From Bacteroidota bacterium (lineage in GTDB: Bacteria; Bacteroidota; Bacteroidia; Palsa-965): a stretch of 64,000 bases of DNA. The translations under genes and the position numbers were made by a program. Below the pieces are notes generated by a model, which made no database searches, was not told where the DNA came from, and saw only the letters and a program-made list of their open reading frames with translations. Positions 37,989-48,232 of this stretch are shown here, one piece after another (position 1 is the first letter of the stretch; each line of letters starts with the position of its first letter). The DNA is taken from assembly GCA_013298545.1 (NCBI GenBank), contig JAAFIA010000001.1, positions 62,001-126,000 of the forward strand. The letters run 5' to 3'.

Positions 37989-38029
37989 ATTATTTTCGCA
38001 TTTCGCAAATTGCGAAATGCGAAAATAAT
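37989..38029. promoter_or_regulatory. 20-bp perfect inverted repeat, likely operator
   Basis: Left arm ATTATTTTCGCATTTCGCAA (37989-38008), one central base, right arm its exact complement (38010-38029). Within it the unit TTTCGCA occurs twice per arm, and TTTTCGCAT occurs again overlapping the ATG (37969-37977). It covers the spacer and -33 region of the promoter, as expected of an autorepressor site. Confidence 0.8.
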
Positions 38030-40927: not shown

Positions 40928-42799
40928 ATGAAAATCTCCCCGCTTATTCTGCTCTTTTTGATTATCGGATTTGCTGCACCTGCACAAACCGGCAAAAAAC
41001 CAAAAAGCAAAAGCACAACCACCGCTGCTAAACGAACAACGGCTGGCAATCCCAAACCCGAGAAAAAAATCGAGTATTGGGATCAGGAAAAAAAGCACAA
41101 AAAAAGCGAAGAATTTTTGCTCAACGGCAAGCAGCACGGCAAATGCAGCTACTGGTATCAAAACGACAAACTCGCGCGTACAGGAAGTTTTATCGATGGG
41201 AAAGAAGATGGTTTCTGGATCTATTATTACGACGATGGCAAAAAGAAAGCCGAAGAATTTTATATCGAAGGAATAAAATTTGGCCGTGCCAAATACTGGT
41301 TCAAATCGGGACAACAAGCCATGATTTGTCGTTATGTTGGCAATGTGGCCGATAGCACTTGGGTTTCGTGGTACGAAAATGGTCAAATCAAAAGCAATGA
41401 AAACTTCAAAGCGGTTTTTGTCAATTTCCGCTGGGGCACCATCAAACAAGGGCAATTCCGCTACTGGCGCGAAAATGGAACACCTGAAAGCGATGGTTTT
41501 TTTGTCAATGATACCCTGCATGGCCCATACAGTTCTTGGCATCCGAATGGAAAAATGCGTGAAACGGGTGAGTTTACAAAAGGTAAAAAATCGGGCCGCT
41601 GGAAATACTTTTACGAAAACGGAAAACTTATTTCTGAAAACGAATACCGCGATGGACTTGAACTGATTTGGGAACTATACGCCGAAGACGGAAAACACCT
41701 CATTGCGAATGGAAACGGACGTTTGTTGCTCGTTTACGACAATGGCAAAAAAAATGCGGAAGGCAATTACCGCAACGGCTTACGCGATAGCACGTGGACA
41801 TTTTGGACACCAAACGGAACACTCGATTTTAAAGACGATTTTCGTGAGGGACGAAAAAACGGAAAATCCATTCATTGGTATGCCGATGGAACCATAAGCA
41901 TTGAAGGACAATACGAAAACGACCTGAAAACGGGCAATTGGACTTGGTACAAAACCAATGGAAAAATAGATATGTCGGGCGAGTTTTCAAACGATTTAAG
42001 AAATGGGCATTGGCTTTATTATTTCCCAGAACAAGACAAAATAGAAACAGACGGGTGGTTTAAAGACGATCTTGAAGATAGCTTGTGGACATATTGGTAC
42101 CCCAACGGACAGAAGTACAAAGAAGGTACGTTTGTAAAAGGCAAGAAAAATGGCGAATGGAAATTTTGGTTCGAGAATGGTCAACTTTTGCAAGAAGGCG
42201 TTTTTGTCAACAATAAAAATCATGGCCTTTGGACATCCTGGTACGACAATGGCGCCATCAAAGACCGCGGCACATTTGATTCGAGCTTGATGGTTGGCAA
42301 ATGGGAAGGTTGGTATTTCAACGGCCAACTCAATTATTCGGGCACCTACGGCGACAAAGGAAGAAAAGAAGGGGCTTGGAAATTTTATTGGAAAAATGGC
42401 AAGATGATGGAGCAAGGTTCGTTTAGGAACGGACTGCATGCTGGAAAATGGACGTATTGGAGCGAAGCGGGAATTTTAGATCGTACGGGGCATTACAAAT
42501 ACGATAAGCAGCATGGCAAATGGAAATACTATTACGAAACAGGTGGTTTGATGACGGAGCAATCGTATGATGTGGGCAAGTTGAAAGGCAAGAGCAAAAC
42601 GTATTACATGGATGGCAAACTAAAAGCTGTTGCCAGCTATAAAATCATTCGGCAAAAAGAGTTTATTGCCACAAAAACCAACGGTAAAAAAGTATATAAA
42701 ACGCGCAAAGTAAGCAAACCACATGGCAAATGGCTTTTCTATGCCCCGGACGGAAAAGTCCTGAGCAGCCTGCGCTATAAGAAAGGTGTAAAGCTTTAG
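40928..42799 (+). CDS. Exported MORN-variant repeat protein
   Basis: 623 residues from the ATG at 40928, immediately before a signal peptide (KISPLILLFLIIGFAAPAQ). An ATG twelve codons and a TTG fourteen codons upstream lie too close to the -7 box. After a Lys/Thr-rich linker there are roughly two dozen ~23-residue MORN-like repeats of the type G.W..Y..NG....EG.F..G...G.W (e.g. WKFWFENGQLLQEGVFVNNK). Databases often label such proteins YwqK-family antitoxin, which is only a repeat match. The role is probably binding at the envelope. The stop lies 3 bases from the convergent gene. Confidence 0.87.
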   Translation: MKISPLILLFLIIGFAAPAQTGKKPKSKSTTTAAKRTTAGNPKPEKKIEYWDQEKKHKKSEEFLLNGKQHGKCSYWYQNDKLARTGSFIDGKEDGFWIYYYDDGKKKAEEFYIEGIKFGRAKYWFKSGQQAMICRYVGNVADSTWVSWYENGQIKSNENFKAVFVNFRWGTIKQGQFRYWRENGTPESDGFFVNDTLHGPYSSWHPNGKMRETGEFTKGKKSGRWKYFYENGKLISENEYRDGLELIWELYAEDGKHLIANGNGRLLLVYDNGKKNAEGNYRNGLRDSTWTFWTPNGTLDFKDDFREGRKNGKSIHWYADGTISIEGQYENDLKTGNWTWYKTNGKIDMSGEFSNDLRNGHWLYYFPEQDKIETDGWFKDDLEDSLWTYWYPNGQKYKEGTFVKGKKNGEWKFWFENGQLLQEGVFVNNKNHGLWTSWYDNGAIKDRGTFDSSLMVGKWEGWYFNGQLNYSGTYGDKGRKEGAWKFYWKNGKMMEQGSFRNGLHAGKWTYWSEAGILDRTGHYKYDKQHGKWKYYYETGGLMTEQSYDVGKLKGKSKTYYMDGKLKAVASYKIIRQKEFIATKTNGKKVYKTRKVSKPHGKWLFYAPDGKVLSSLRYKKGVKL

Positions 42800-42802
42800 C
42801 CT

Positions 42803-43096
42803 TTACGATGTTTTCTTACGCAAGCGGCGGAAATGCGGGTCGTTGGGATGGTTGTAATGTGGCTTATGCACATTGTTTCCGGGAGTACTTGATTCTTCAT
42901 CTTTGTTTTTCCCAGATTGACCTACCGTAATGACCCAAGCGAAGAGAACTACGCCTATAATGAGGGCAACGTAAAGTAGGATTTCGCCCACAGAGATTCC
43001 TTCTGGTTTTCCTGCGGTTTGAGCCCAAGTAGGTGTACTGAGCATAAGGGTTGCGGCAATGAGCGCAATTCCTTTGGTGTTGTGTTTCGGCATCAT
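42803..43096 (-). CDS. Small membrane protein with signal peptide
   Basis: 97 residues from the ATG at 43096; an ATG at 43147 would add 17 residues and is possible. Signal-like helix (GIALIAATLMLSTPTWAQ), then one membrane segment (VGEILLYVALIIGVVLFAWV) and a polar C-terminus ending HFRRLRKKTS. No family recognised. It is divergent from rimP. Confidence 0.7.
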   Translation of the reverse strand: MMPKHNTKGIALIAATLMLSTPTWAQTAGKPEGISVGEILLYVALIIGVVLFAWVITVGQSGKNKDEESSTPGNNVHKPHYNHPNDPHFRRLRKKTS

Positions 43097-43193
43097 GACT
43101 ATGCGTGTTTGCGTTAGACAGGTTCGATGCCGTTCTTTTGTATTCATGAGGCCAAAAAAGAACGTCGTCGGAAGTATTATTGGTTTGGTCTAG

Positions 43194-43235: not shown

Positions 43236-43267
43236 TTTGGATTTATACTTATTCTATTGTACATTTG
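43236..43267 (+). promoter_or_regulatory. Promoter of rimP-nusA-infB
   Basis: TTTG (43236-43239), a 20-base spacer and TACATTTG (43260-43267): the clearest complete Bacteroidota promoter in the window. Transcription should start near 43273, about 55 bases before the rimP ATG. Confidence 0.8.
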
Positions 43268-43294
43268 CACTCGCAATTCGTAGAAAAACAATTC

Positions 43295-43321
43295 AGGGGA
43301 CAGAAAGTCCCCTGTTTTTTT
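43295..43321 (+). terminator. Leader terminator (attenuator) before rimP
   Basis: Perfect 8-bp stem CAGGGGAC / GTCCCCTG with a 4-base loop, followed by seven T. It lies between the promoter and the rimP ATG at 43327, so it would stop transcription before the operon unless antiterminated. Confidence 0.85.
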
Positions 43322-43326
43322 GTCGC

Positions 43327-43791
43327 ATGATCAACCACAATACCGTTCGCCAACTGGCCGAAGAACATCTCGCAGGCACCGATCTTTTTCTCGTTGACAT
43401 TACCATCAACGCGAAAAACAAAATCGCTGTATATGTTGACCGTATGGGCCATGTAGCCATCAAAGACTGCGTTTCGTTGAGCCGCCACATCGAGTCGAAT
43501 CTTGATCGTGAAGCCGAAGATTTTGAACTCGAAGTGTCATCGCCCGGCCTCGATAAACCGTTCAAAGTTATTCAGCAGTACGAAAAAAATATCGGCAAAG
43601 CGGTTGAGGTCGTTCTCAAAGACGGTCGCAAAATAGAAGGAACACTTACCGAAGCATCTGCTGAACGTATTGTTCTTGAACAACACCTGATTAAAAAAGT
43701 TGAGGGCAAAAAAACAAAACAAAAAACAACCGAACAGCACCCGTTTGCTTTCGCCGACATCAAAGAAACCTACATCGTCATTTCTTTTTAA
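43327..43791 (+). CDS. rimP: Ribosome maturation factor RimP
   Basis: 154 residues from the ATG at 43327. The frame reaches further upstream, but that part would cross the leader terminator and promoter. RimP assists late 30S subunit assembly in the cytoplasm. Visible are FLVDITINAKNKIAVYVDRM, DCVSLSRHIESNLDREAEDF and the hallmark ELEVSSPGLDKPFK, followed by the SH3-like C-terminal domain. First gene of the conserved rimP-nusA-infB order. Confidence 0.93.
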   Translation: MINHNTVRQLAEEHLAGTDLFLVDITINAKNKIAVYVDRMGHVAIKDCVSLSRHIESNLDREAEDFELEVSSPGLDKPFKVIQQYEKNIGKAVEVVLKDGRKIEGTLTEASAERIVLEQHLIKKVEGKKTKQKTTEQHPFAFADIKETYIVISF

Positions 43792-43840: not shown

Positions 43841-45091
43841 ATGGAAAACATCAACCTGATCGAATCCTTCTCAGAGTTTAAGGAAACGAAAAACATCGAC
43901 CGCACTACGTTGATCAGCATCATCGAAGACGTATTCCGCAGTCTTATCCGTAAAAAATACGGTAGCGACGAAAACTTCGACGTTATTGTAAATCCCGAAC
44001 GCGGCGACTTAGAGATTTGGCGCAACCGCGAAATTGTCGATGATGAATTTGCTGAAGACAGCTTTGATTACGACGAAAACAAACACATTGGCTTGAGCGA
44101 AGCCCGCAAAATTGAACCCGATTTTGAAATTGGTGAACAAGTAACAGATAGTTTTAAGCTCGATGATTTTGGACGCCGTTCTGTTTTGGCAATCCGTCAA
44201 AACCTCGTTTCGCGCGTACTCGATCTCGAAAAAGACGCCATCTACCAAAAATACAAAGAACGTGTTGGTGATGTCATTACGGGCGAAGTTTACCAAGTCT
44301 GGAAAAAAGAAACACTCATTCTCGACGACGAAGGCAACGAACTTATTCTTCCTAAAAACGAACAAATCCCGGGCGACTTTTTCAAAAAAGGCGATTCTAC
44401 CCGTGCCGTTGTTTCTAAAGTGGATATGCGCAACAACGCGCCTGTCATTATCCTTTCCCGCACCTCGCCTGTTTTCCTCGAAAAATTATTTGAAAACGAA
44501 GTTCCTGAGATTTTCGATGGCCTCATTACCATCAAGAAAATTGTCCGCGAACCAGGCGAACGCGCCAAAGTTGCTGTTGAGTCGTACGACGATCGCATTG
44601 ACCCTGTTGGTGCTTGTGTGGGCATGAAAGGCTCACGCATTCATGGCATTGTTCGCGAATTGAAAAACGAGAACATCGATGTTATCAATTATACTGCCAA
44701 TACACAACTCTTTATCCAACGTGCGTTAAGTCCAGCAAAAATCACATCAATCAAGCTCGACGAAGAAAATAAACGCGCCGAAGTATTCCTGAAGCCCGAT
44801 CAAGTTTCGCTTGCTATCGGAAAAGGAGGACACAATATCCGTTTGGCTGGCCGCTTAACCGGATACGAAATCGACGTTTACCGCGATACGGATGAAGATG
44901 TGGAAGACGTTACACTCGACGAATTCGGAGACGAAATCGAACAGTGGATTATTGATGAGTTCAAAAACATTGGTTGCGATACAGCGAAAGCCGTATTGGA
45001 ACTGAGCGATGAAGAACTCATCCGCCGTACCGACCTCGAAGAGGAAACCGTACGCGAAGTAAAACGCATTTTGCGTTCCGAGTTTGAATAA
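43841..45091 (+). CDS. nusA: Transcription termination/antitermination factor NusA
   Basis: 416 residues from the ATG at 43841 (MENINLIESFSEFKE); a TTG six codons earlier is rejected. The N-terminal RNA polymerase-binding domain, S1 domain (about 130-200, VGDVITGEVYQVWKKETLIL) and two KH domains (GACVGMKGSRIHGIVREL, VSLAIGKGGHNIRLAGRLTG) are present, with a shorter acidic C-terminus. It modulates pausing, termination and antitermination. It lies 49 bases after rimP. With a terminator in the operon leader, autoregulation by NusA is a reasonable inference. Confidence 0.95.
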   Translation: MENINLIESFSEFKETKNIDRTTLISIIEDVFRSLIRKKYGSDENFDVIVNPERGDLEIWRNREIVDDEFAEDSFDYDENKHIGLSEARKIEPDFEIGEQVTDSFKLDDFGRRSVLAIRQNLVSRVLDLEKDAIYQKYKERVGDVITGEVYQVWKKETLILDDEGNELILPKNEQIPGDFFKKGDSTRAVVSKVDMRNNAPVIILSRTSPVFLEKLFENEVPEIFDGLITIKKIVREPGERAKVAVESYDDRIDPVGACVGMKGSRIHGIVRELKNENIDVINYTANTQLFIQRALSPAKITSIKLDEENKRAEVFLKPDQVSLAIGKGGHNIRLAGRLTGYEIDVYRDTDEDVEDVTLDEFGDEIEQWIIDEFKNIGCDTAKAVLELSDEELIRRTDLEEETVREVKRILRSEFE

Positions 45092-45149: not shown

Positions 45150-45232
45150 GGAAAATAAGTGGTCATTTGCCGAATGAGTGCTTTGTTTTCCGACCTTTGT
45201 ACACCGAAAATTCAGCGCGGCAAAACGACTCT

Positions 45233-48232
45233 ATGTCAGAAACCGAAAAAACAATCCGACTCAGCAAAGTCAAAGGCGAGTTGAACGTGTCTCTTGAACG
45301 CATCTTCGAAGTACTCGAAGAAGCCGAGGGGCAAAAGATCGACCGCAACCCAAATGCAAAAATCTCAGAAGCGCAATACCGTCTTCTGCAAGATGAATTT
45401 GCTGTAGATCGGGAAGAAAAAGAAGAATCCAAGCAAATCGGACTTAGCACCAAAGCCCGCAAAGAAACGATTGCGCTTGAGAGTGATTCACGCCCACGCG
45501 AGAAAGAAAAAGAGCGCACACCGGAAGTGGCGAAAGAACCTGTGAAGGAGAAAGAACCCGTAAAACCGGTTGTCGAAACACCTCCCGCTGTTGTTGTTGA
45601 AAAGAAAGAAGAGGAAGAAGCGCCAAAAGTAGAGCCTGTTGTTGAAAAACAAGAGGAAGAAAAACCTGCGGAGGAAAAAACAGAAGAGATTGTTCGTGTA
45701 AAAGCCGAATCAACCTTTACTCCAAAAGTAATCGGCAAAATCAATCTCGAAGAAAAACCAAAAGCGAAAGGTAAAGCTCCCCAAAAGGTTGAGAAAGCTC
45801 AGGAAAAACCGAAGACTAATCCGAAAGGCGATAAAAACGCACCGAAAAAACAAGAGCCTGTTGTTACTCCTAAAGAAGAAGTAAAAGCAGAACCTGTTGT
45901 TGAAACGCCTGTTGTTACCGAAACGCCCGCTGTTGATATTCCTGAGGAGAAAAAAGAAGAAGTGCTCTTCCGCCGTACCGTCGATAAACTCGAAGGACCG
46001 AAGATCATGGGCAAAATTGTTTTGCCCGTTAAAGATGACAAGAAAAAACCTGTCGCCTCTTCTTCTGCTCAATTTGAATCCGACAAAAAGAAAAAACGCA
46101 AACGCATTCGTAAAGAAGGCGGACCTGTTGATCCAAAATCGTTTGCTGCTAAAAACGATCAAAATAAAACAGGCGGCGGACAAGGTGGTGGTGGAAATAA
46201 CCAAGGAAATAACAACAACCGCAACCGTCCAGGCGGTGGTGGTGGAAATAATCGTCCAGGCGGAAACAATCGCCCAGGCGGAAACAACCAAGGAAATAAC
46301 CGCAAGCCGAATACTCCGAAGGCTGAACTCACCGAAGAAGAAGTACAGGCACAAATTAAGGAAACACTCGCCCGTCTTAGCGGTGCTGGTGGAAAATCCA
46401 AAGCCTCTAAATACCGCCGCGAAAAACGCGATCAAGTTAGCCAACGTATTCAACAAGAAGCAGCAGCTCAACTTGCCAATGAAGGTATTTTAAAAGTAAC
46501 CGAATTTGTTACCGCTGCGCAACTCGCTACCATGATGAATGTTCCTGTAACAAACATCATCTCAACCTGTATGACGCTTGGCTTGTTCGTTTCCATCAAC
46601 CAACGTCTCGATGCCGAAACCATCAGCATCCTCGCCGAAGAATTTGGCTACAAAGTTGACTGGGTAAGTGCTGAAGTTCAAGAAGCCATTCAGGAAGAAG
46701 AAGATCGTCCTGAAGACCTCACCGATCGTCCGCCAGTTGTTACTGTCATGGGTCACGTTGACCACGGTAAAACATCACTCCTCGACTACATCCGCAAAAC
46801 AAACGTTATTGCTGGTGAATCGGGTGGTATTACGCAGCACATCGGAGCTTACGCGGTAAAACTCGAAAACGGAAAACAAATTACGTTCCTCGATACACCG
46901 GGTCACGAAGCGTTTACGGCGATGCGTGCGCGTGGTGCGAAACTTACTGACGTAGCCATCATCGTAGTGGCTGCCGACGATAGCGTCATGCCGCAAACCG
47001 TTGAAGCAATCAACCACGCACAAGCTGCGGGTGTTCCGATTGTATTCGCGATTAATAAAATTGATAAGCCCGGAGCAAATCCAGATAAAATCCGCGAAGC
47101 ACTCTCGGCCATGAATATCTTGGTTGAAGAATGGGGCGGTAAATTCCAGTGTCAAGAAATCTCGGCCAAAAAAGGTCAGCACATCGACACACTTCTCGAA
47201 AAAGTATTGCTCGAAGCCGAAATGCTTCAGCTCAAAGCCAATCCGGTACGCCGCGCCGTAGGTGCGGTCATCGAATCGACGCTTGATAAAGGTCGTGGTT
47301 ATACTGCAACCGTTCTCGTCGAAAACGGAACCATGCGTGTAGGCGATGTCGTTCTTGCTGGTTGTTTCAGTGGTCGTGTCAAAGCGATGCACAACGAACG
47401 CGGACAAGATATTCTCGAAGCCGGACCAGCAACGCCAGTTCAGTTGCTCGGCCTCAACGGTGCGCCACAAGCGGGCGATAAATTCAACATCATGGCCGAC
47501 GAACGCGAAGCCCGTGAAATTGCCAACAAACGTTTGCAACTTCAGCGCGAGCAACAAATTCGTACCACCAAACACATCACCATCGAAGAAATTGGCCGTC
47601 GTATTGCCCTCGGCGATTTCAAAGAACTCAACGTCATTGTCAAAGGCGACGTGGATGGTTCAATCGAAGCGTTGGCCGATGCGTTGCTCAAACTTTCTAC
47701 CGAGAAAGTTCAGATTCGCATCATTCACAAATCAGTTGGTGCCATCAGCGAAAGCGACGTACTCCTTGCTTCTGCTTCAAACGCCATCATCATTGGCTTC
47801 CAGGTTCGTCCGTCTGTCAATGCGAAGAAGCTTGCCGAAACAGAACAAATCGACATTCGTCTCTACTCCATCATTTACAAAGCCATCGAAGAAATCAAAG
47901 CCGCGATGGAAGGTATGTTGGCCCCAGAGTTTGAAGAGAAAGTTGTTTGTAACGTCGAGATTCGCGAAGTATTCCGCATCACGAAAGTGGGAACAATTGC
48001 TGGTTGTTATGTACTCGATGGTAAAGTCAACCGTCAAACCAAAGTACGCATCATCCGCGATGGCATTGTACTCCACGACGGCTCACTTGGTTCACTCAAA
48101 CGTTTCAAAGACGATGTGAAAGAAGTTGCTGCTGGTTACGAATGCGGTCTGAACATTGATAAATTCGACAACATTCAAGTTGGCGATTTGATCGAAGGTT
48201 ACGAAATGGTTGAGATCAAACGCAAACTTTAA
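45233..48232 (+). CDS. infB: Translation initiation factor IF-2
   Basis: 999 residues from the ATG at 45233 ([20 protein letters not shown]). The longer frame starts at a TTG beside the hairpin. IF-2 is the GTPase that delivers initiator tRNA to the 30S subunit. A long Lys/Glu/Pro-rich linker (to ~290) and a Gly/Asn/Arg-rich stretch ([14 protein letters not shown]) precede the conserved core. G1 is at about residues 505-512 (GHVDHGKT), then [12 protein letters not shown], and the C-terminal domains II-IV ending [15 protein letters not shown] terminator follows. Confidence 0.96.

Follow-up and report, generated by a model that had tools for sequence, protein, structure and literature searches.

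A conserved leader hairpin ahead of rimP-nusA-infB in Bacteroidia, probably a transcription attenuator with NusA feedback

What is the role of a terminator-like hairpin that is placed between the promoter of the rimP-nusA-infB operon and the first gene of that operon? This question is raised by a locus in a 64,000-nucleotide stretch of Bacteroidota DNA, the whole of which is referred to below as the window. Based on Pfam matches, the operon contains, all on the + strand, (i) rimP (43327..43791; 154 amino acids; RimP_N and RimP C-terminal SH3 domain), (ii) nusA (43841..45091; 416 amino acids; NusA_N and KH domains), and (iii) infB, encoding translation initiation factor IF-2 (45230..48232; 1000 amino acids). 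In each of 50 long loci inspected, nusA was found after rimP.

Promoter, leader RNA, and hairpin at the rimP locus

The rimP promoter on the + strand matches the consensus TTTG / TAnnTTTG of the Bacteroidota primary-sigma type (PMC7366714). The -33 element TTTG is located at 43236..43239 and the -7 element TACATTTG (TAnnTTTG) at 43260..43267, with a spacer of exactly 20 bases. Since the TAnnTTTG box sits at -12 to -5 (PMC9723704), the start site of rimP is predicted near 43272-43273, and sequence and folding predict a leader RNA at 43273..43326 (+) of about 54 to 55 nt, with a terminated RNA of about 49 nt. Some 23 A-rich nucleotides separate the start site from a hairpin, CAGGGGAC-AGAAA-GTCCCCTG (43294..43314, +), whose arms at 43294-43301 and 43307-43314 form a perfect 8-bp stem with 6 G-C pairs around the loop AGAAA. 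The stem is followed by a T7 tract (43315..43321, +) and the five bases GTCGC, and it ends 12 bases before the rimP ATG at 43327. The original prediction, made from this sequence alone, of a TTTG-N20-TACATTTG promoter and of a perfect 8-bp hairpin with seven T before the rimP ATG was thus correct on both counts. It had also called the leader of about 55 bases very compact; the size is right, whereas such a length is ordinary for the phylum, in which 5' untranslated regions (UTRs) of Bacteroides thetaiotaomicron average 52 nt (PMC7366714) and those predicted for rimP in 91 class members have a median length of 59 nt.

The fold of the 54-nt leader has a free energy of -18.2 kcal/mol (z = -4.0), a stability reached by none of 200 shuffled sequences, and the terminator hairpin is its sole stable fold. 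Among the strong terminator-like sites of the window, only the rimP site sits in a true leader. Elsewhere in the window, a perfect palindrome, TTATTTTCGCATTTCGCAATTTGCGAAATGCGAAAATAA, was observed at 37990-38028 (-) between two same-strand open reading frames (ORFs), 48 bases past the stop and 12 bases before the start.

The hairpin lies 494 bases past the last same-strand stop, and the next gene upstream is a small ORF on the - strand that is divergent from rimP and has no Pfam match (42803-43147); judged by eye, its product likely has a signal peptide and one membrane segment. Beyond it, at 40934-42799 (+), a protein consisting mostly of MORN_2 repeats is encoded (Pfam E = 2e-54). Because the neighboring gene is on the - strand, the hairpin is not the terminator of a gene upstream, and such a role was ruled out by gene orientation and by the promoter in between.

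Conservation, covariation, and specificity to rimP

The rimP upstream regions were inspected in a first set of 69 genomes of the same genus, family, and class, as well as in a held-out set of 60 further class genomes, none of which was used in building the covariance model. The leader hairpin was present in 128 of these 129 Bacteroidia genomes, which were sampled by kinship and are hence non-independent, a relatedness that the shuffle controls leave in. In the first set it was found in 68 of 69, including one genome (G037) with the hairpin about 225 nt upstream. A formal terminator rule (a stem of at least 5 pairs with at least 4 G-C, and at least 5 T in 8 bases) identified 56 of the 60 held-out leaders, compared with 0.75% of dinucleotide shuffles; in the remaining four, the hairpin is present, but its T tract is weak or its stem is interrupted. 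The sole genome of the 129 with an intact rimP-nusA-infB operon and no leader hairpin is G053 (L300, family f43). In this genome, rimP is nearly leaderless, with about 6 nt between the promoter box and the ATG, and its NusA shares only about 41% identity with that of the window.

The elements around the hairpin are retained as well. A T tract occurs in nearly all members, with on average 6.5 T within the 8 bases past the stem, and 119 of 125 class members have TAnnTTTG within the 60 nt 5' of the hairpin. The distance from this box to the hairpin core is near-constant (median 29 nt, median absolute deviation 2), a narrow spacing that may reflect function or simply short leaders, whereas the distance from hairpin to ATG ranges from 7 to 61 nt (leaving aside the approximately 225 nt of G037). 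In one genus of family f12 (L009, L066, L139, L140, and L154), the hairpin GCAGGGGAC..GTCCCCTGC is kept and the T tract has decayed to TTCATT; the stems of these five leaders, and those of L035 and L037, were assigned by eye. A factor-dependent terminator might show such decay, as might an element with a role in pausing or on the mRNA.

The class consensus of the stem is RGGGGAC...GUCCCCY, and GGGGAC/GTCCCC is exact in 69 of 125 leaders. Lineage-specific shifts were seen in Chitinophagaceae (GGGAAC/GTTCCC), Arcticiflavibacter (GAGCGGAC/GTCCGCTC), and Flavobacterium (GAGGCACGC/GCGTGCCTC), and, given this drift in some families, a single fixed recognized sequence would be no more than a possibility. 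A MAFFT alignment of 67 leaders, built without the use of structure, revealed two-sided changes at 7 of the 9 pairs of the helix, in 38 cells compared to 8.7 in shuffles; the covariation score was reached by none of 500 shuffles and exceeded that of all slid versions. The 56 held-out sense matches, in an alignment that was fitted to the covariance model and is therefore biased in its favor, showed such changes at 8 of 9 pairs (52 cells versus 10.9 shuffled), with 95.5% of cells pairing. The covariation proposed as a check on the original prediction is thus present within Bacteroidia. Antisense matches to the model scored lower, indicating that the 3' T run matters. Taken together, the class conserves the hairpin in position, in structure, and largely in sequence, and the hairpin is no chance match. 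Outside the class, in 20 genomes of the same phylum, most rimP leaders keep a hairpin and T run with different sequences; the hairpin position is older than the GGGGAC signature.

The genome-wide background was derived from pattern and covariance model searches. (i) The pattern AGGGGACN3-8GTCCCCT had one site each in 32 of 59 relatives' genomes, and 29 of these 32 exact sites were rimP leaders, the other three being 3' terminators elsewhere; the reversed control pattern gave 7 sites. (ii) A search of 296 class genomes with covariance model R1 placed 26 of the best 30 matches directly before rimP (one of them, L132, assigned by eye, as its contig ends just afterwards), and the other four were 3' terminators. 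(iii) Of 38 held-out genomes for which the place of rimP is known and the best match of the whole genome was listed, 23 had the rimP leader as that match. The GGGGAC/GUCCCC signature is thus almost private to rimP. We found no wider regulon of the same hairpin: the non-rimP sites checked were 3' terminators, and the element is not shared by any second gene.

Relation to known rimP and nusA leaders

The general rimP-leader, as described in the main text of Naville and Gautheret (2010; PMC2965389), is a single hairpin with a G-rich 5' arm, a C-rich 3' arm, and a T stretch, located 4 to 130 nt from the gene and lacking an antiterminator. Sequence conservation and the missing antiterminator led those authors to propose NusA as its regulator. 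The window hairpin resembles this description in that it is located in the 5' UTR of rimP-nusA-infB, has the G-rich and C-rich arms CAGGGGAC/GTCCCCTG followed by T7, lies 12 nt from stem to ATG, and has only the terminator fold. The literal motif GGGc(...)gCCC of that paper differs from GGGGAC/GTCCCC in the window and occurs in some class members only (for example, L024 and L026). The element therefore belongs to the general rimP-leader in the general sense of the Figure 2b legend, the mismatch concerning the stem consensus and not position, polarity, or T tract. Bacteroidetes are not named in the main text of that paper, and Bacteroidota may already be present in its species list.

With its one hairpin, the element is closer to this general rimP-leader than to the leader of the same operon in Escherichia coli. 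The Rfam family RF01770, the gammaproteobacterial rimP leader, covers 102 positions with two tandem hairpins and has a gathering score of 47 bits. It scored 102 bits in the E. coli positive control, exceeded the cut-off in none of 59 class genomes, and was absent from the matches listed for the window leader at E values up to 10. The E. coli terminators t1 and t2 precede rimP, and mutants with reduced NusA termination show increased levels of the operon transcripts (PMC6511841), from which autoregulation of the operon by NusA is inferred. The t2 terminator, GGGCTTTAGGCCC followed by T7 and located about 18 nt from the rimP start codon, resembles class variants such as AGGGCTCTAATTAGGCCCT. The parallel with E. 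coli drawn in the original prediction therefore holds for leader terminators before the same operon, whereas the E. coli leader is longer and more complex, with two terminators. The nusA leader of Bacillus subtilis likewise has an intrinsic terminator with nusA in the operon behind it, and NusA acts on its own leader to promote termination (reviewed in PMC12288461). That leader measures about 180 nt (as given in PMC2965389), compared with about 55 nt here, and its NusA dependence has been reported, whereas that of the window leader is argued by analogy.

The 2021 transcriptome of Flavobacterium psychrophilum (PMC9723704) contains a structured 5' element before rimP that is kept in other Flavobacteriaceae genera and has no Rfam match; it is very probably the same element. 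The main text of that study names the rimP element, and a consensus, a terminator or NusA reading, and the class-wide range are added here. A rimP-leader attenuator is consequently a known kind of system and not a new one; what is new are the class-wide consensus, the covariation, the genome-wide specificity to rimP, the failure of RF01770 to detect the element, and the narrow box-to-hairpin spacing.

Probable attenuation with NusA feedback and its alternatives

Several modes of control were considered and rejected. Leader-peptide attenuation is not compatible with the lack of ATG, GTG, or TTG between start site and hairpin in the window leader, and the corresponding stretch is free of ATG in 58 of 96 relatives. 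A riboswitch or other known RNA was likewise rejected, as no Rfam match exceeded its gathering score in the window; weak leader matches appeared at a relaxed threshold. We found no conserved motif (such as boxA) from start site to hairpin beyond A-richness and no alternative (antiterminator) structure in the leader folds. The short, A-rich leader is too small to accommodate an antiterminator, an aptamer, or a leader peptide; regulation must therefore target the elongation complex at the hairpin.

The hairpin and T7 tract are best read as an intrinsic terminator in the rimP-nusA-infB leader that serves as a transcription attenuator, probably with feedback by NusA. RNA polymerase would start near 43272 and transcribe about 49 nt; at the T tract, either the short RNA would be released or readthrough would proceed into rimP. 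NusA, the second product of the operon, would raise termination at the hairpin, such that ample NusA would close its own operon and scarce NusA would open it. Of the original prediction that the logic is the same as in E. coli, the part concerning a leader terminator that would act as an attenuator draws strong support from conservation and covariation as well as from U-tract, position, and rimP specificity, whereas the part concerning NusA autoregulation is reasonable by analogy with B. subtilis and E. coli; our literature search found no 3'-end, reporter, or NusA-depletion results for the rimP leader of any Bacteroidota. Since the sequence is conserved beyond the needs of a terminator, the data suggest that a protein reads the stem or the loop, with NusA as the first candidate.

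The most serious alternative, although clearly less probable, is a real leader terminator without NusA control, which would either set operon output as a fixed attenuator or respond to another factor, such as NusG, RimP, IF2, or the global elongation state. With its 6 G-C pairs and T7, the window terminator is strong and might do without NusA, there is no antiterminator or ligand-binding element, and the hairpin persists while its sequence drifts. However, the conservation of the stem and its near-uniqueness to rimP exceed what a fixed terminator needs, and NusA autoregulation through the leader of the same operon has been reported in B. subtilis (PMC12288461). Conversely, a stronger version of NusA feedback can be entertained as a rather doubtful proposal, namely, that the GGGGAC/GUCCCC hairpin, kept across the whole class at about 29 nt downstream of the promoter box, serves as a dedicated NusA sensor that is read by its sequence, with termination near +49 set around the time at which sigma gives way to NusA on the young elongation complex.

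It is improbable that the hairpin acts after transcription, guarding the 5' end from decay or hindering ribosome loading, with an incidental T tract. Its end only 12 bases from the ATG in the window and the five f12 leaders with a decayed T tract would fit such a role, which is at odds with the T tract in nearly all members, the variable hairpin-to-ATG distance, and the lower scores of antisense matches. Even less credible is a trans-acting small RNA: an intrinsic terminator would indeed give the released RNA of about 49 nt a defined 3' end, but its 5' single-stranded part of about 23 nt is A-rich and not conserved and has no shared seed. Finally, that the hairpin stops transcription from upstream or insulates rimP against it is very hard to sustain, for although the stem looks bidirectional and a + strand gene ends at 42799, the promoter lies between the upstream genes and the hairpin, so that rimP's own transcripts would be stopped too, the neighboring gene is divergent, and the box-to-hairpin distance is conserved.

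These findings matter in several respects. (i) The RNA family library overlooks this attenuator, for which a class-wide consensus and covariance evidence are now available in a major phylum that includes gut, soil, and marine bacteria. (ii) If the more speculative sensor proposal were true, the NusA level would be measured directly at each initiation, and the class would possess a specific recognition element distinct from ordinary NusA-stimulated terminators. (iii) The minimal leader, with one hairpin in about 55 nt, offers a clean test of NusA feedback in organisms whose transcription termination has been little studied. (iv) The data suggest that the control of nusA through early termination is general.
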